A stretch of DNA of 48,520 nt from Halobacteriales archaeon QS_9_67_17 (GTDB taxonomy: Archaea; Halobacteriota; Halobacteria; Halobacteriales; Haloarculaceae). Below are positions 27,386-36,166 of this stretch, one piece after another; position 1 is the stretch's first letter, and every line of letters starts with the position of its first letter. The position numbers and the translations under genes were made by a program. The notes under the pieces are model-generated. The model was not told the DNA's origin. It searched no databases and saw only the letters and a list, made by a program, of their open reading frames with translations. The stretch is taken from contig PXSB01000088.1 of NCBI GenBank assembly GCA_003023185.1, positions 7,401 to 55,920 on the forward strand, in the 5' to 3' direction.

Positions 27386-27781
27386 TCAGTAGGTCTCGAC
27401 CGGTACCCCCAGCGCTTCGAAGTCTTCGACGTTGTCTGTCAGGACCGCGTCGCCGAGGGCGTCGGCCATCGCAGCGATGTATCCGTCGTTTGCCCCGACG
27501 CCGGCGTTTCCCCCGACTTGCTCGTCTGCCGCCGCGAGTAGCTCGCCGGCTGTCCGCGCGATCTCTTCGTCGACGTCGATGCGGGGGTACCCGAGGATGC
27601 GATTTCGCACCTCCTGCTCGGTGGTGTCGCTGCGAGCGGTGGCGATGCCGTAATACGCCTCAGCGACCACTGGCGTCGGCAACCACTGCATCTCGCCGTC
27701 CTCGACGAGTTCCGCGCCCTTCGAGAACGCGCCGGGGTCATCCGCCATCAGATCGAATAGGTACGAGGAGTCGATGATCAT
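27386..27781 (-). CDS. VapC-type PIN ribonuclease toxin
   Basis: The 131-residue protein is a PIN domain: MIIDSSYLFDL with the first catalytic Asp (residue 4), VVAEAYYG with a conserved Glu, and two further acidic sites, GANDGYIAAMA and LTDNVEDF. VapC toxins cut RNA in cells and are neutralised by VapB, encoded just upstream with ATGA overlap. It lies immediately convergent to the 125-aa gene. Confidence 0.9.
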   Translation of the reverse strand: MIIDSSYLFDLMADDPGAFSKGAELVEDGEMQWLPTPVVAEAYYGIATARSDTTEQEVRNRILGYPRIDVDEEIARTAGELLAAADEQVGGNAGVGANDGYIAAMADALGDAVLTDNVEDFEALGVPVETY

Positions 27782-28026
27782 TCGTCTGAATCCTTCCTTT
27801 CGAAGGCGTTGCGAGCGGCATTGAGACGGTCACGGTCGCCTGCCCGGAGCCCTTCGACTGCTTCCTTGGCGTCCTTGGCTTCCTCCTCGGTCAGAAGGCC
27901 CGCAACGTCGCTCGGGTGAGGCCCGCGCGTCATCCGACGCAGCGTCTCCTCCATCGTCTCGTCGTCCTTCTTGTGGGCGTGCAACCACTCGTGATACTCC
28001 TCCGAGACGCGAATGGTTTTGACCAT
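27778..28026 (-). CDS. VapB-type ribbon-helix-helix antitoxin
   Basis: The 82-residue protein starts MVKTIRVSEEYHEWLHAHKK, a ribbon-helix-helix start, then MEETLRRMTRG, and a charged helical tail (LTEEEAKDAKEAVEGLRAGD) typical of toxin-binding segments. Start and stop overlap VapC by four bases. A palindrome-like AT-rich operator sits just before the ATG. Confidence 0.87.
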   Translation of the reverse strand: MVKTIRVSEEYHEWLHAHKKDDETMEETLRRMTRGPHPSDVAGLLTEEEAKDAKEAVEGLRAGDRDRLNAARNAFERKDSDE

Positions 28027-28392: not shown

Positions 28393-28456
28393 TGGGGCCG
28401 GAGGGATTTTCACCACGGTCGCTCGCTCCACTCGCTCTCTGATTCAAATCCCCCGG
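28393..28456. repeat. tRNA-Trp 3'-end-like palindromic repeat
   Basis: The 17 bases tggggccggagggattt at 28393-28409 are identical to the 3' end region of the tRNA-Trp gene (28496-28512), in the same orientation. A second arm, attcaaatcccccgg (to 28456), is its rough inverted copy, resembling a T-stem and loop. The element lies just downstream of the tRNA. It may be an integration scar or a short mobile palindrome. Confidence 0.6.
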
Positions 28457-28495: not shown

Positions 28496-28674
28496 TGGGG
28501 CCGGAGGGATTTGAACCCCCGATCGACTGATATCTCCGGTGTGCGCCTCGGGTCTCCAGAGGGTCGTCAACGCGGGCGGTGATCAGCCGGCCGCTCGGTA
28601 TATCAGTCTGGAGTCTCGTCACCGGGCGCGTGGCCTCTGGAGTCAGTCGCCATGCCTGGCTTGGCCACAGCCCC
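28496..28674 (-). tRNA. tRNA-Trp (CCA) with a 105-nt intron
   Basis: Exon 1 (28674-28637) starts GGGGCTGTGGCCAAGCC and ends ACTGACTCCAG with the CCA anticodon; exon 2 (28531-28496) starts ATCAGTCGATCGGGGG, carries TTCAAATCC in the T-arm and closes the acceptor with CGGCCCC and discriminator A. The acceptor, anticodon (ACTGA/TCAGT) and T stems pair. The intron (28636-28532) sits at the canonical 37/38 position. It contains box C-like GTGACGA, internal box D-like CTGA and box C-like TTGACGA, and the segment CCTCTGGAG, complementary to CTCCAGAGG at the anticodon and exon-intron boundary. That is the layout known in Haloferax, where the intron guides 2'-O-methylation of the tRNA. Confidence 0.93.
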
Positions 28675-28760
28675 TCGCTCCTCCGTATGCCGATTCAGGG
28701 TAAAGGGGTTTCGATTCACCCGATCCTGACCGTTATGCAGGCCACTCCCGATACCACGGT

Positions 28761-29105
28761 ATGGCCGAGGAAGTGCCCGTGACGGTCCGCGACGGCGACC
28801 GCGAGGAGACGCTCTCCGTCGAGCGCGGCACGACCCTGCGCCGGGCGCTCCGGGACGCCGACTTCGAGGTGTACGCACCGGCGGCGAAGGTGGCCAACTG
28901 CAGCGGGCGCGGCATCTGTGCGACCTGTGGCGTCCGGGTGTGGGACGGCGCGGGTGAGGAACCCGACGCCGACCACTGGCACGACGCGTTGGCCGCCCGG
29001 TACGGCTACCCGCGGCTGTCGTGTCAGTTGACGGTCGACCAACCGCTGACGGTTGAGCTCATCGAGAAACGCTACTGGGGACAGCTACTGCCGCGCCGGG
29101 AGTGA
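28761..29105 (+). CDS. [2Fe-2S] plant-type ferredoxin
   Basis: The 114-residue protein has a ferredoxin ubiquitin-like fold: VPVTVRDGDREETLSVERGTTLRRALRD, then the cluster loop NCSGRGICATC with three Cys and a late LSCQ Cys (about 47, 53, 56 and 90). It carries single electrons in the cytoplasm. The short acidic sequence and C-terminal YWGQLLPRRE suit a haloarchaeal ferredoxin-like protein, though it is not the main ferredoxin with the long N-terminal extension. It ends just before the left end of the integrated element. Confidence 0.87.
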   Translation: MAEEVPVTVRDGDREETLSVERGTTLRRALRDADFEVYAPAAKVANCSGRGICATCGVRVWDGAGEEPDADHWHDALAARYGYPRLSCQLTVDQPLTVELIEKRYWGQLLPRRE

Positions 29106-29201
29106 TTAGGATTCGGCGTCGCTCCACGAACAGTCCTGACATTTGTAGCCGGTGACGCTCGGCATGTAGCCGACGGCGAGGACGCTGCCGTCACACTCCG
29201 G
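29106..29201 (-). repeat. displaced 3' end of the DUF5795 gene (left element boundary)
   Basis: On the minus strand this piece encodes CPECDGSVLAVGYMPSVT, then GYKCQDCSWSDAES and a stop, the C-terminal half of the DUF5795 protein at 33144-33368. DNA of 29119-29201 matches 33157-33251 apart from one base and a 12-base deletion in the tandem ggtgac region. It has no start of its own. It marks the far end of a 4-kb inserted element and probably is the original gene tail. Confidence 0.85.
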
Positions 29202-29351
29202 GCAGTCGCTCCGCGCAGCATTCGATTGCGGGAGCACGCAGATCTCCAATTCGGGCTTGAGCGGGCTGCTCGCCCACTGAATCGGGGGGATACGTTTGTC
29301 GGGAATCCGACGATTCGAGTTCATCAGCGGTTCGTCATGTAATTCGATAAA

Positions 29352-30175
29352 ATGAAGACTTTCCCGAAGTCGCAGATTCTCCGGTTTACTGAGAAGGCCA
29401 TCCATTTGGCACGCCGAGCTGTCTCTCAATACTCCTCGAAGTTCTCCAAACACCGCTATACACTCCCGCAGCACGTAGCTCTGCTGTATCTCAAAGTTCG
29501 GAAGAACACGACCTATCGTGGTCTGCCCGATGAGTTGATTGAGATGCCACACATCCGTCATGTTCTTGTGTTAACAAACTTCCTACGGCATCAATACTCT
29601 GTAAGGCGCTTAATCGGCTTAATATGGCTGTATGGCGTGTCATATTGACTCTCTCAGCGACGCTACTCCCGACGAGTGAGATTGTTGGAGTTGATGCGTC
29701 AGGGTTCAACCGGAGTCACGCTTCAAAACATTACACGAAACGAGCTGAAGTCACGATTCAGCAGCTCAAGGTGACACTGTTGGTCAATACGAAAGTGAAC
29801 GCCATCCTTAATTTACACACGACGGCGACACGAAAACACGATAGCCAGATTGCGCCGTCGTTGATCAACCGCAACCCCGAGAATATCGACATCCCGCTCG
29901 GTAACAAAGGGTACGACGACCAGAAAATCAGACGGCCTGCCCGTCACCACGAGATTCGCCTACTGATCAAGTACCGTGAGTTCACATCGCTCCACAAGAC
30001 ATGGAACGTACGCTTAGACCCTGATCTCTACGGCCAGCGGAGTCAATCCGAGACTGTGAACTCAACACTCAATCGGAAGTACGGTGCGTTCGTCCGGTCA
30101 TGACGCCGGTGGAAACAGTTCCGTGAACTTACCATCGCCTGTCTCGTTCATAATATCGACCGCTACTCTGAGCGG
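29352..30175 (+). pseudogene. IS5-type (ISH) transposase remnant
   Basis: Two frames join to a haloarchaeal IS5-family transposase: MKTFPKSQILRFTEKAIHLARRA and KVRKNTTYRGLPDELIEMP from the first, then MAVWRVILTLSATLLPT, VGVDASGFNRSHASKHYTKRAE (DDE first Asp), GNKGYDDQKIRR (second Asp) and GQRSQSETVNST (the Glu region) from the second. The frame breaks near 29585-29625, where expected residues are missing, and a TGA at 30101-30103 cuts the end (RS then RRWKQF). Inactive. It lies in the decayed element, and no clean terminal inverted repeats were found. Confidence 0.85.
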
Positions 30176-30377
30176 TTAATGCAACTGCTTCGACTCAGAA
30201 CTCAGACCGCAGAAACAGCTAGCCGAGGATGCTTTGTGAGGTACAGAATGCGAAGTTACCGCCTCTGTTTTATCAACTCTCATAAAGTTTGAGACCACCG
30301 TGCAAGACATAGAGGCTGTACGCAGCACTGTCAACGAGGGTTCACCGACGGTAACTACAGCACGACAGAGCATGTCT

Positions 30378-31034
30378 TCAAATGCTTTCGCGGACACCGT
30401 ATTCCTGTAGTATATTGATTTCGTCGCGGAGATACGATTGGAAGATGTTACCTATTAACACACTGGCTCCGAGATAGGCGATGATGCACATGATCTTGTA
30501 TAAGACAGCATACCCAGTCATGTCCACATATGACAGCACAAGCGACGGTATACAGAGGATCGCGGTCGCAATCATGTGAAACGAAAGTGAATAGAGCGGA
30601 TCGTCCGGTCCGAAATGCTGCATCATCAGATCGTACTCGTTGACCTCTAAAATCGGCAATACCATCCAGAACACGCTGATGACGACTGCCAAGATGACGC
30701 CCGAAAGACTGCTCTCGGATAGCACGGTTAGTACGAGTACCAATCCAAGCAGCAGGGAATTGAACGCGTGGATATGATTGAAGCGACCGAACCTCGGCTC
30801 GGCACCACCATTGACTTCGGTTCCCTTCTGCTGAGAGGCTTTCTCACCCGGCGACAGAGAAAGGTCAAAGAGTGGTCGTAGGACCGCTTCAACAGGGCCA
30901 CCTTGGAGTAGGTACACCTCCGAATGGACCTCGTTCGATACTTCGACAATCTTGATTTGCCGCGATACGTCAGTCATTGTTATAGTCACCAGCAATAGCA
31001 ATGGCACTAACAGGGAGATATTAATGTCAACCAT
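30378..31034 (-). CDS. multi-spanning membrane protein, 218 aa, unrecognised
   Basis: The protein is hydrophobic with a first span at about 4-20 (ISLLVPLLLLVTITM), a cytoplasmic or external region with acidic and polar residues at about 21-90, and four more spans at about 92-110, 113-130, 150-170 and 178-200. Codon use is AT-rich compared with the core genome, in keeping with a foreign element. No family is recognised. It lies between the transposase remnant and other decayed genes. The preceding 200 bp (30176-30377) hold nothing I can place beyond an extension of the transposase frame. Confidence 0.6.
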   Translation of the reverse strand: MVDINISLLVPLLLLVTITMTDVSRQIKIVEVSNEVHSEVYLLQGGPVEAVLRPLFDLSLSPGEKASQQKGTEVNGGAEPRFGRFNHIHAFNSLLLGLVLVLTVLSESSLSGVILAVVISVFWMVLPILEVNEYDLMMQHFGPDDPLYSLSFHMIATAILCIPSLVLSYVDMTGYAVLYKIMCIIAYLGASVLIGNIFQSYLRDEINILQEYGVRESI

Positions 31035-31097
31035 ACCCGGTTATCAGAAGCGAATGTAATAAATTTCGGTCAATCGCTGAATCAGAAGCTCGACGAG

Positions 31098-31211
31098 ATG
31101 GATGCCGACGAGTCCGAGCATCACGAGATCGTGATGGAACGGCTCGACGAACTCATTCTTTACCTCGACGACGAAGACGCCCTCAAGTTCGAGTGGGACG
31201 ATCTCGAGTAG
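31098..31211 (+). pseudogene. truncated small acidic ORF in the element
   Basis: From the ATG at 31098 the frame reads MDADESEHHEIVMERLDELIL, then LYLDDEDALKFEWDDLE and a stop. It is very acidic and helical, as haloarchaeal proteins are. The frame stays open upstream (LNQKLDE) without a clear start, so this is probably the 3' end of a longer gene cut off when the neighbouring membrane gene was brought in. Unrecognised. Confidence 0.4.
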
Positions 31212-31398
31212 TTCACGAGTCCCCGATGAGACTGCCCATGGCCGGGTGGACGAGGGTGCCGATAGGCTCAGGATCAGATGGACGATGCTTGTCCCCATCG
31301 TACGCACCGCTTCCCCCTTCCTCGGTTGGCACAGTGGAGGGGAGGCGCGAGCACCGCTCGCGCCACCGCGCCCGCAGTACCGTTCCTGTCGCAGCGAT

Positions 31399-31752
31399 TC
31401 ACTCCTCTGTCTCAAACGAGTCCAAGACATCGACAGCGTCGAGCATCGCGACGATCACGTCGGCGTTCATGTGTTGGAGTTGCTGGGCGCCCAGGTAGAG
31501 ACACAGTGGCTATACGTGGCGGTTCTTCTCGACATTGAGCTTCTCGTCGCGGTTGAAGTGAAGCTCAGTTTCAACGTGCATGCGCACGTCGCCGAGCATT
31601 TCACGGCGATCCTCGCGCAGATAGAACGTTTTATGATTCCTATCTGTCACTGGCCCATCATAGTTGGATGACGCATCTGACTCATCATCGTCGAATGACT
31701 CTTCCGACTCCTGATTCGGCGGTGGCGTCTCTGAATTATGATTCCCACTCAT
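31399..31752 (-). pseudogene. plasmid-type acidic protein with a stop codon (DUF8160-like)
   Basis: In one frame the sequence reads MSGNHNSETPPPNQ, an acidic DESEESFDD-type linker, HKTFYLREDRREMLGDVRMHVE, then KLNVEKNRHV, a TAG, and PLCLYLGAQQLQHMNADVIVAMLDAVDVLD to the end at 31399. Similar haloarchaeal plasmid proteins (near parA, from memory) have KNRHxYP at this point, so the TAG (about 31510) replaces a Tyr codon. The gene is dead or has one substitution. It suggests the element was once plasmid-derived. Confidence 0.55.
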
Positions 31753-31887
31753 GCTTTCACGATGAGGTACAGCACCGGGGGAAAATTTAAGACATTATTA
31801 GTATATATCGATATCGTTAATTATTCCCAAAACGCGTTCTCGTTAGCATCGCCCGACTGTGGTAGGAGGCGAAGGGAGGCCGGCCCC

Positions 31888-32994
31888 CTACTTGAGGTTC
31901 TCGAGAGTCTCCCGCCGTCGTTCCGGTAGCGACTGATCGTAGCGAGCTGTCGTCTCGATGTTCTTGTGTCGCAGTTGCTCGCGCGCAGTACTGAGATTCG
32001 CCTCGTCGATGAGCCCAGTCGCCAATCCCCGTCGGATCGAATACTACGTCACCTGTCGGTTTGCCGTGTCGATCCCAGCGATCTCACAGAGCTGATTCAT
32101 GAGATACGAGAGCGAGCGACTGGTGTAGGGGTTCCCTTTGGTAGTGATCCACAGGGTGTCAGTGCTGTCGTAGGCTTCTATGGCTTCGCGCTGTGCCAGC
32201 CACCGTTCCAGAAGTTCAGCTATCCGCGCGCTGATTACGGGCGCCCACGCGTCGTTCCCCTTCGATGATTGCTCGCGTGCGATGCGTAGCACGCAGGCGT
32301 TGGTATCTACCCAGTTGACGACTGCGCGCTCAACCTCGATAGGCCTGAGGCCGGTATCCAGCGAGGTTGCGACGAGCGAGGGAATCTTCCAGCCGTTCGC
32401 GCGCTCCCGGTGCTCCAGCCCGACGGCGTCCTTTGGGATAGTGAATCGGCTCGCGAGATACGCTTTGTACCGATCTCGCTCTGCAGGCGTGTAGCTGTTG
32501 TAGTTCGGGATCGTCCCGTACTCGAGACTCGCCTCTCGGATGTCCCGCCGCTCCTGCTTCGTCAGATAGTCGCCATCGCTGGCTTCCCCACCGCTGGCGG
32601 TGAAGGTGAGCTCTGGCTTCCAGGCCGACTCGTCGTGCCTGTGCTCACGCCAGCGATACAGCGTATGGAGCGCCTTCTGGATGTGCGCCTTCGTACTCTG
32701 TGCGTATTCGGCGAGCGCGACTTCCCGCGTGTAGTCGTCTGCGTCATCGTGAGAGACGGAGAGGGTGTATCCTCGTTGCTCTCACACCCACTCGTAGAAG
32801 TCGTTGACTCGGTAGTGCCGGACGTTCATCGTCGATTCCGAGTACCCAGTGCCCGTCTGCGGAGACTTCCCCTGAGTGAGGCACCACGTTAGCCACTCCC
32901 GTCGGTGATGTTTGTAGTCCTCGTGCTGTCGTTGGTTAAGATACGTTTCCGTGCCGTGTGGAATCAGTCGAATTCCCTTGATCTGATCGGACAT
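31888..32994 (-). pseudogene. tyrosine recombinase (integrase) with two in-frame stops
   Basis: A single 369-codon frame encodes an integrase, broken only by two stops: TGA (32782-32784) after NDFYEWV and TAG after TANRQVT (about 32046). The intact stretches show the core-binding domain and the catalytic domain: LDTGLRPIEVERA with the first Arg, YSIRRGLATG in the HxxR region, LRHKNIETTARYDQ with the R-H-K block and nucleophile Tyr. In related integrases both stop positions are Trp, so TGG became TGA and TAG. It ends about 150 bp from the intact DUF5795 tail, as an integrase beside its att site would. Confidence 0.88.
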
Positions 32995-33143
32995 TGTGTC
33001 ACTGTCGCGTAGAACAGCCGTAATCGCCCGACAATGCGGTATTCTCGGGAGTACAGTGTTCGTGGCTGGCTCTACACGCTTTCTTGCAGTGACACCGCCA
33101 GATAGACACAAATCGTCGGTACGAGGGCTTGAAAGCTCGATTT

Positions 33144-33368
33144 CTAGTCCTCTCGTTCGCTCCACGAACAGTCCTGACACTTGTAGCCGGTGACGAACGC
33201 GGTGACGCTCGGCATGTAGCCGACGGCGAGGACGCTGCCGTCACACTCCGGACACGTGCGGTCGGCGTCCTCGATAGGTTCGGCGTCCATCACGCTCTCG
33301 CCTTCGATCAGCTCGGCGAGCTTCTTCGGCGTCACCATCCGCCCCTCGACGACGCGATTGTCGGCCAT
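33144..33368 (-). CDS. DUF5795-family zinc-ribbon protein
   Basis: The 74-residue protein starts MADNRVVEGRMVTPKKLAELIEGE and ends with a zinc ribbon: CPECDGSVLAVGYMPSV, then GYKCQDCSW (CxxC and CxxC). I know the family only from haloarchaea, without a function; the ribbon suggests nucleic-acid or protein binding. Its C-terminal half is duplicated at 29106-29201, so the 3' end here (SWSERED) came with the inserted element while the original tail was pushed 4 kb away. It neighbours DUF5794 as in other haloarchaea. Confidence 0.85.
   Translation of the reverse strand: MADNRVVEGRMVTPKKLAELIEGESVMDAEPIEDADRTCPECDGSVLAVGYMPSVTAFVTGYKCQDCSWSERED
33157..33251 (-). repeat. DUF5795 3'-end repeat (right element boundary)
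   Basis: This 95-base block inside the DUF5795 gene is repeated at 29119-29201 with a 12-base deletion and one mismatch. Both copies are in the same orientation. The two bracket the element that carries the integrase and transposase remnants, and fit attL and attR of an integration into the gene's 3' end. Confidence 0.8.
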
Positions 33369-33451
33369 GTGCGTAGCGGGTGAGCGACGCCCCTAAGCGT
33401 TGCCGTCGCGCGACGAGCGACGGGCCGAAGTCCCCGGCGCGAGGCGACCTG

Positions 33452-34354
33452 TCACAGCCACGGGGCGCGGTCGGGGTCAGTCGAGCGGTCGGAGTCGCTG
33501 GATTCGCCGTCCGACCCCGGCGGCTCCGCCTCCTCGTCGCCGCCGTCGGCCAGTGCCCCGTCGACCGGGTCGGTGCCGGGCGTCGTCTCCCGATCCGGGT
33601 GGTCGACCGGCACCGTCCCCGCGTCGTCGCCCGGGTCGAGCGAGAGCAGCGACGTGACGCCGAAGACGGCGAGCGCGAGCGGGACGTTCGCCTCGATGAC
33701 CCCGAGGATCGACAGCGGGAGCACGCCCAGCGCGACCGCACTGCCGAACCGGAAGCGGTCGAGGTCGACGTTGCCGCGGAGCCACGGGCCGAAGACTGCC
33801 GCACCGAGTGCGAAGACGACCCCCATACCCGCCGCGGCCACACCTCGAACCACGTCCATCGGGTCGGCGACGAGGACGAACTCGAAGCCGGCCGGCTGGA
33901 GCGAGGCGATCAGGCCCAAGCCGACGATGACGCCGGGCGAGGGGAGATACTCGCCGACGGTCGCCGAGGCCGTCTTCGCGGCGATGGCGAGGATCACCAG
34001 CGCGGCGAACCGCTCGAAGATGGCGATGTTCAGCATCGTTGCGATAGTGGGCGCGAGCGCCGCCTCGACGGCCGCGATGACCACCACCACCGCGCCCACG
34101 GCGAGGACGGAGGTCACCTGCTCGCGGCGAGTGCCCTCCATCTCAGCCAGCACGACCGCGAGGGTGGCCGACCCGCCGAACACGAGCAGGCCGACCTCGA
34201 TGATACCGAGCGGTGACGCGAGCGCGCCAGCGAGGATGAGGGCCGGGAAGATGCCGTCGACGAGCGGCAGCGCCATGACGGTAGCGAGGAGCCGCGTCCC
34301 CTCGCCCACCTGCTGCTCAAGGCGGACGGCAACCGGATGTTGCGAGACGCTCAT
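33452..34354 (-). CDS. DUF5794-family membrane protein
   Basis: The 300-residue protein has about seven predicted membrane segments between residues 25 and 245 (LLATVMALPLVDGIFPALIL, IIEVGLLVFGGSATLAVVLA, SVLAVGAVVVVIAAVEAA and so on), then a Pro/Asp-rich acidic tail. I recall it as the haloarchaeal DUF5794 family, of unknown role, found next to DUF5795. The stop of a small upstream ORF touches its start (TGAATG), suggesting coupling. It lies divergent to guaB. Confidence 0.82.
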   Translation of the reverse strand: MSVSQHPVAVRLEQQVGEGTRLLATVMALPLVDGIFPALILAGALASPLGIIEVGLLVFGGSATLAVVLAEMEGTRREQVTSVLAVGAVVVVIAAVEAALAPTIATMLNIAIFERFAALVILAIAAKTASATVGEYLPSPGVIVGLGLIASLQPAGFEFVLVADPMDVVRGVAAAGMGVVFALGAAVFGPWLRGNVDLDRFRFGSAVALGVLPLSILGVIEANVPLALAVFGVTSLLSLDPGDDAGTVPVDHPDRETTPGTDPVDGALADGGDEEAEPPGSDGESSDSDRSTDPDRAPWL

Positions 34355-34540
34355 TCAGGGGGAGTGGCGATACCCCGTCGCCTGTGGGTGGTTTGCGTCA
34401 CGATGGCCCCGTGGGTGTTCCCCGTTGAACTTGAGCCAATCGAACGCGAACCAAGCCGCAAAGTTCCATGTTTTCGAGTTGCCGGAGGCGGTGCTCGGCT
34501 GGCCGGCAATGCGCGATGCGATGGAACCTGCGGCGTCCAT
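34355..34540 (-). CDS. small ORF directly upstream of the DUF5794 gene, 61 aa
   Basis: The ATG at 34540 is followed by MDAAGSIASRIAGQPST, then TWNFAAWFAFDWLKFNGEHP and a His-rich end, and its TGA is immediately followed by the DUF5794 ATG. A TATA-like block (minus strand, about 34559-34571) lies 19-31 bp before the start. Promoter spacing and stop/start contact favour translation, but the composition is unusual and I know no relative. The rest of the 34541-34751 gap holds only the guaB promoter region. Confidence 0.45.
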   Translation of the reverse strand: MDAAGSIASRIAGQPSTASGNSKTWNFAAWFAFDWLKFNGEHPRGHRDANHPQATGYRHSP

Positions 34541-34751
34541 ACCCGTATTGACTGTTGGATTTATCATAAACGTTGCGTGGGAGGCCGGCACAGACCGCCG
34601 CGAAACGACCGCGTAACCGCTGTCCGGGCACTAAACTCGCACTGTGCTGTACGAACGTACAGATCGCCGACGAAAAGCTGTTCCCACGACGCATTCCGGC
34701 CGGTCGCGCGTCACTCGGAACGCTTTTGATTCGGGCGATTACACCGTTTAT

Positions 34752-36166
34752 ATGGTAGACGACCGATTCTCGCGGAAGCTCGACGTGCCGGAGGCGCTGA
34801 CGTTCGACGACGTACTGCTTCGCCCAAAGGAGTCGCGCGTGGAGCCCGACGAGGCGGACACCGCGACGCGCGTGTCGCGCAACGTCGAACTGAACGTCCC
34901 CGTACTCTCGGCGGCGATGGACACCGTCACCGAGGCGGGGCTGGCAATCGAGATGGCTCGACAGGGCGGTCTCGGCGTCATCCACCGGAACATGGACGTA
35001 GCGGAGACGGCCGCGAACGTCGAGGAAGTGAAACGCGCGGACGAACTCATCATCCGCGACGTGGTGACGGCCTCTCCCGAGATGACCGTCGAGGAGGTCG
35101 ACCGCGTGATGGGGCGGTCGGGTGTCTCCGGCGCACCGGTCGTCGACGAGGACGACGAGGTACTCGGTATCATCTCCGGTACCGACATCCGGCCGTACAT
35201 CGGCATCGGCGAGGACGACCCCGTGCGCGAGGCGATGACCGACGAGGTCGTCACCGCGACGGAGGACATCACCGCTCGCGAGGCGCTCGAACTGATGTAC
35301 GAACACAAGATCGAGCGCGTCCCGATTGTCGACAGCGCGAACCGGCTCACCGGGCTCCTCACGATGCGGGGCATCCTGTCGTCGGTCCGTTCGAGACTGA
35401 TCGCGCTCGGGCGGCCGACGAGGCCGGCGCGGACATCGTCTTCATCGACTGTGCACACGCGCACAATCTGGACGTGCTCGACGCCGCCCGCGAGATCAAG
35501 GCGGAGGTGGCCGCGGACGTGGTCGTGGGCAACGTCGGCACCCGCGAGGCCGCGGAGGCCGCCGTCGACTTCGCCGACGGGCTGAAGGTCGGTATCGGCC
35601 CGGGGTCCATCTGTACCACGCGCGTCGTCTCTGGGGCCGGCATGCCCCAGATCACGGCCGTCTCTGAGGTGGCCGACGTGGCCGCGCCCGAGGACGTGCC
35701 CGTCATCGCCGACGGCGGTATCCGCTATTCGGGCGACGCGATCAAGGCCATCGCGGCGGGCGCGGACGCGGTCATGCTCGGCTCCTACTTCGCCGGCACC
35801 GACGAGGCCCCCGGCCGCGTCATCACCATGCAGGGCAAGAAGTACAAGCAGTACCGCGGCATGGGTTCCGTCGGCGCGATGAGCGAGGGCGGCGGCGACC
35901 GCTACCTCAAGGACACCGAGGAGGACGAGGAGTTCGTCCCCGAAGGCGTCGAGGCCGCTACCCCGTACAAGGGGTCGCTCGAAAGTGAACTCCACCAACT
36001 CGTCGGCGGAATGCGCTCCGGCATGGGCTACGTCGGGGCTGCGTCGATCCCCGAGTTCAAGCAGCGCGCCGAGTTCGTCCGCATCTCGCAGGCCGGCCAG
36101 TCGGAGGGCCACCCGCACGACGTGATGATCACCGACGAAGCGCCGAACTACTCGCCCAACGAGTAA
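34752..36166 (+). pseudogene. guaB: IMP dehydrogenase GuaB, internal deletion and frameshift
   Basis: The first frame (from MVDDRFSRKLDVPEALTFDDVLL) gives the N-terminal catalytic strand and two CBS domains (VDEVMGRSGVSGAPVV-like and REALELMYEHKIERVPIVD). At about 35380-35386, after LLTMRGIL, the frame changes and the catalytic barrel continues: [50 protein letters not shown] with the catalytic Cys, then the flap and tail to 36166. About 25-30 residues between are missing, not a multiple of three bases. The enzyme oxidises IMP to XMP for GTP synthesis and is normally essential, so assembly error is likely unless another copy exists. Confidence 0.9.

Follow-up and report, generated by a model that had tools for sequence, protein, structure and literature searches.

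A decayed integrative element in the 3' end of a haloarchaeal DUF5795 gene, and a probable change of attachment-site class in its integrase lineage

We asked how a haloarchaeal gene encoding a DUF5795 protein came to have two 3' ends, separated by a stretch that holds an integrase. The locus belongs to a window of 48,520 nucleotides from Halobacteriales archaeon QS_9_67_17 (contig PXSB01000088.1), and all positions given below are counted within this window. An initial annotation, made from the letters alone, read the locus as a decayed integrative element inserted in the 3' end of the DUF5795 gene. The tail repeat, the empty sites in congeners and the presence of sister integrases at the same gene bear this reading out. 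We consider it very probable that these 4 kb are what remains, after decay, of a DUF5795-targeting integrative element, whose integrase belongs to a clade descended from tRNA-gene users.

The last 111 nt of the minus-strand DUF5795 gene are repeated at 29106-29204. Ungapped comparison divides the repeat into two pieces, 29119-29157 against 33157-33195 (97% identical) and 29150-29204 against 33200-33254 (98% identical), with a 12-base slip between them. These values agree with the two copies described earlier as 98% alike apart from such a slip, whereas the end coordinate then proposed for the element, 33251, falls inside the integrase-proximal copy, as the repeat extends to about 33254. Since attR and attL differ by the slip and by two substitutions, the identity of the att core in the window is inexact. 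Strong matches to the tail occur in only two places in the whole 2-Mb assembly (E 2.6e-46 and 7.5e-29), and DUF5795 orthologues are present in 76 of 97 relatives. The C-terminal ends differ, the intact protein ending in SWSERED and the displaced tail in SWSDAES. The GC content between the tail copies is 54% over about 4 kb, compared with 65-68% outside. Coordinates of all features are collected in Table 1.

We looked for an uninterrupted DUF5795-ferredoxin arrangement and found it in all five same-genus genomes examined (G001-G005), where DUF5795 and the ferredoxin gene are immediate neighbours and no integrase is present, so that an empty site exists. In the closest congener, G005, DUF5795 is 96% identical, and about 10 bp separate its end from the ferredoxin gene. 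One contiguous stretch of G005 aligns to both 28496-29204 and 33157-35381, with a 98-bp overlap that corresponds to the duplicated tail. The uninterrupted DUF5795 of G005 ends in SWSDTES, resembling SWSDAES, indicating that the copy on the ferredoxin side is the old tail and that SWSERED came with the element, just as the initial annotation had assigned them. Thus direct repeats of the target's 3' end bound the element and its attB is uninterrupted in relatives, as in a site-specific integrative element.

Table 1. Features of the inserted element and its host flanks, in window coordinates.
Feature	Position	Strand	Basis
2Fe-2S ferredoxin gene, host flank at attR side	28761..29105	+	PF00111, E 7.7e-7; adjoins DUF5795 in G001-G005
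attR: displaced old DUF5795 3' end, tail SWSDAES, adjoining ferredoxin gene	29106..29204	-	Repeat; tail SWSDTES in G005
Body of decayed integrative element, 54% GC against 65-68% in flanks	29205..33156	.	Absent from G001-G005; GC
IS5-type transposase remnant (ISHla2-like), DDE, in two frames	29352..30103	+	PF01609; 85-86% identity to plasmid IS5 transposases
Membrane-protein-like orphan ORF, 218 aa	30378..31034	-	Without database relatives
Frame-broken small ORF	31510..31752	-	Weak matches (33-38%) to hypothetical proteins on haloarchaeal plasmids
HSTV2-type tyrosine integrase pseudogene	about 31891..32994	-	PF00589, E 1.2e-16; 71% identical to intact Halorubrum cibi integrase
attL: DUF5795 3' end, integrase-proximal copy	33144..33254	-	Direct repeat with 29106-29204
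DUF5795, attB host gene, now with element-supplied tail SWSERED	33144..33368	-	PF19108, E 5.6e-44
Conserved DUF5795 neighbour (which we take to be DUF5794), host flank at attL side	33452..34354	-	Found upstream of DUF5795 in the majority of relatives examined

The contents proposed for the roughly 4 kb between the copies, an integrase, a transposase remnant and a membrane protein, were recovered as matches to PF00589 and PF01609 and as a membrane-like ORF. The plasmid-type remnants that had also been proposed stand in part: plasmid relatives do exist, but the matches are weak (33-38%). In a search for virion genes, the two window ORFs scanned gave no PHROG match, in a remnant that is heavily decayed. 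The integrase pseudogene is co-directional with DUF5795 and transcribed away from it. It is open over 368 codons apart from two in-frame stops, a TGA and a TAG, both of which align with tryptophan codons (TGG) of the intact relatives and require one G-to-A change each. The second stop presumably precedes the catalytic YSIR and Tyr motifs as we read them. With two in-frame stops at Trp codons the window copy would not encode a functional integrase, whereas its Halorubrum relatives are intact. Sequence errors could in principle account for both stops, the assembly being 67.5% complete; decay fits the lost cargo and the broken transposase.

The HSTV2 integrase family has been defined by at least 30% identity to its members over 60% of the protein, by PF00589 as the only Pfam domain and by an occurrence limited to Halobacteria and the elements they carry (Badel et al. 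2021, PMC8371274). An intact relative (P0001) shares 42.0% identity with the HSTV-2 integrase across 99% of its length and carries PF00589 as its single Pfam domain, while the window integrase matches PF02899 below the cut-off (16.1 vs 22.3 bits). All integrase matches are haloarchaeal, the genome searches being confined to the order and the plasmid and phage matches being haloarchaeal too. The integrase thus resembles the HSTV2 type in identity and domain content. In contrast, the HSTV2-type relatives examined lie at tRNA genes, and the DUF5795 clade lies at a protein gene.

We searched 392 genomes of the order for related integrases, and fuller searches of both families added no closer one. 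Only two integrases exceed 53% identity to the window copy, those of Halorubrum cibi DSM 19504 (71%) and Halorubrum sp. GN11_10-6_MGM (70%), and both are intact. A search for such relatives beside DUF5795, as the initial annotation had suggested, thus succeeded in both cases: each integrase lies immediately downstream of the DUF5795 3' end, in the same direction, and each genome carries a second DUF5795 tail. These closest relatives give no sign of another attB. In H. cibi the tail copies bound a 17.9-kb element of 48% GC and have a single mismatch in their 67-bp core; the second tail of GN11 is on another contig. Furthermore, the attR flanks of these Halorubrum genomes align with sequence downstream of DUF5795 in G059, another Halorubrum, where this region is uninterrupted. 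Among the longer proteins of the H. cibi element, Pfam and PADLOC recognise a type IIG restriction-methylation enzyme, a GmrSD-type protein and an NrS-1 polymerase HBD-domain protein, together with weak matches to SLATT and HEPN proteins. Its gene content suggests an integrative defence island.

A DUF5795 tail is present in 350 of the 392 genomes, and more than one tail match occurs in five only: the window organism, H. cibi and GN11, which carry integrases of the clade, and two others, G259 and G024. In G259, a Halorubrum, DUF5795 is intact and also bears an element-type tail (SWKTTDRDE); about 3.7 kb follow, and then a second tail. This insertion (L139 84-3821, contig C68) holds two CDSs, whose products are 323 aa and 822 aa long, the longer being a repeat protein; at the att copy the ends of the contig share an overlap of 55 bases. 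No integrase of the DUF5795 clade was found in G259, and the insertion is a candidate deletion derivative or non-autonomous element. The extra tail of G024 was dropped as an insertion. There the copies are found close to opposite ends of a single contig, and the neighbour genes are duplicated with them; we therefore read the duplication as an apparent assembly overlap of the contig ends. The known set comprises three DUF5795-clade integrases and four insertions.

A partial gene duplication or an IS-mediated rearrangement, with the integrase as a passenger, might also leave a second tail, and the IS5-type transposase remnant between the copies would suit such an origin. We regard it as very unlikely, since the Halorubrum insertions are independent and differently filled, yet are bounded by the same tail and have the same integrase clade beside the intact gene; moreover, among the 350 genomes no tail is duplicated without an element tail, bar the one apparent assembly overlap. 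Least likely of all is that integration used the nearby intron-containing tRNA (28496-28674), or some other site, as its true attB, with the DUF5795 tail an incidental homology: relatives of the integrase do lie at tRNA genes and a tRNA is present beyond the ferredoxin gene, but the bounding repeats are DUF5795 sequence, the alignment to the empty site of G005 breaks exactly inside DUF5795, the second copy in H. cibi is again DUF5795, and no bounded element of the DUF5795 clade with flanking tRNA repeats was found.

Integration into DUF5795 itself would have proceeded as follows. An HSTV2-type integrase would have recombined the chromosomal DUF5795 with an attP in which about 90 nt of the gene's 3' end were present. 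The element's own last codons (SWSERED) would thereby have been joined to DUF5795, restoring a full-length frame beside the integrase gene, and the old tail SWSDAES would have been pushed to the far end, next to the ferredoxin gene. Later decay may have turned two Trp codons of the integrase into stops, an insertion sequence may have entered and itself decayed, and most of the cargo was probably lost. We infer that the integrase performed the recombination and that the element formerly moved from cell to cell; the crossover can be placed no more narrowly than within the shared core. Bacterial elements, such as e14 in icd, likewise restore the 3' end of a protein gene. In both cases the element supplies a replacement C-terminus and the gene stays intact, although e14 differs in its bacterial host, its integrase family and its target gene.

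Of the 34 other family members placed in the tree, the next relatives of the DUF5795 integrases, 33 lie beside tRNA genes or fragments. A tRNA gene lies within the roughly 4-kb locus of 30 of the 34 (23 Glu, 5 Arg, 1 Met and 1 Pro), and three further relatives (L082, L107 and L108) have a partial tRNA sequence. No tRNA was recognised in the locus of L073, the sole such relative among the 34. By eye, an ORF upstream of that integrase is TFB-like and may be a further protein gene that serves as target. The DUF5795 integrases group in a single clade (support 100/99-100), sister to the integrase of G386, a tRNA-Glu user (100/100), and this grouping is fully supported in both trees. With HSTV-2 as outgroup, the DUF5795 clade and G386 nest inside tRNA-adjacent relatives; HSTV-2 forms a long branch, and some intermediate nodes are weak. 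In G386 an exact 55-bp copy of the 3' part of tRNA-Glu lies 10 kb away, indicating that tRNA-Glu is the actual att site there; for the other tRNA-side relatives the criterion is tRNA adjacency, not a repeat.

Given this nesting and the tRNA-Glu-using sister, the most economical reading, judged from the sequences, is that in one HSTV2-type integrase lineage the protein gene DUF5795 replaced a tRNA gene as attB; a small clade would now use DUF5795, while its ancestors used tRNA genes. Four things can be read directly from the sequences: duplication of the tail, empty sites in congeners, repeated juxtaposition of DUF5795 and integrase, and the nested position of the clade. Such a change of target class, as opposed to a move from one tRNA to another, giving rise to elements with defence genes and to the integrase-less derivative in G259, maybe moved in trans, is in our judgement probable. 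We also considered similarity between the tRNA-Glu and DUF5795 cores as a cause of the switch. Shuffled sequences scored as well in 204/500 and 186/500 cases for H. cibi and GN11, respectively, and in 33/500 for the window; because the best local scores in H. cibi and GN11 are no better than many shuffles, we rejected this similarity as evidence. Dyad symmetry was likewise discarded as a common feature: a 5-bp stem with a 7-base spacer (GTCAC/GTGAC) occurs in both Halorubrum cores and is absent from the window core.

The initial annotation called a protein-coding attB unusual. This is fair, but precedent exists in archaea, including the haloarchaeal Halorubrum virus BJ1, which uses the HMG-CoA reductase gene, as well as Msmi-Pro1 and NitGar-E6 (PMC8371274), so the kind of site is not new. 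These elements share integration inside a protein-coding gene with those described here, and their target genes differ. For pT26-2 integrases, target switching has been described as restricted within tRNA gene classes (PMC8371274). No mention of DUF5795 was found in the literature searched, and the DUF5795 attachment site and the switch of target class appear not to have been reported previously. Searches of viral contigs with integrase patterns found no relative, and the DUF5795-tail pattern matched 12 viral contigs, none encoding DUF5795 or this integrase. Plasmids and phages gave integrase relatives of less than 60% identity only, and no free circular or viral form with a DUF5795 attP was found among viral contigs, plasmids and phages.

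These integrases offer a clean natural case in which closely related archaeal enzymes, about 50% identical, have a tRNA gene as one target and a protein gene as the other, and intact elements are available in a culturable species, H. cibi DSM 19504. As of 2021, recombination at inter- and intragenic sites was untested in vivo or in vitro, and dyad symmetry was posed as a question (PMC8371274); the pair of tRNA-site and DUF5795-site integrases makes both questions testable. DUF5795 is a recurrent landing site, useful for the annotation of haloarchaeal islands and possibly as a site for integration vectors.

The surroundings of the locus showed some further features. The intron-containing tRNA gene on the minus strand beyond the ferredoxin gene is apparently tRNA-Trp by sequence (Rfam 43.3 bits, missed by ARAGORN). 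A 22-nt near-copy (91%) of its 3' end lies at 28393-28414, possibly a trace of another integration. Beyond the tRNA, two adjacent minus-strand ORFs (27386-28000) resemble, by eye, a VapC (PIN) toxin and a VapB antitoxin. In GN11, a 986-aa ORF that is HsdR-like by eye (L133 5482-8442, contig C152) lies just past the tRNA-Trp-like region, suggesting that the DUF5795/tRNA neighbourhood may collect several insertions.
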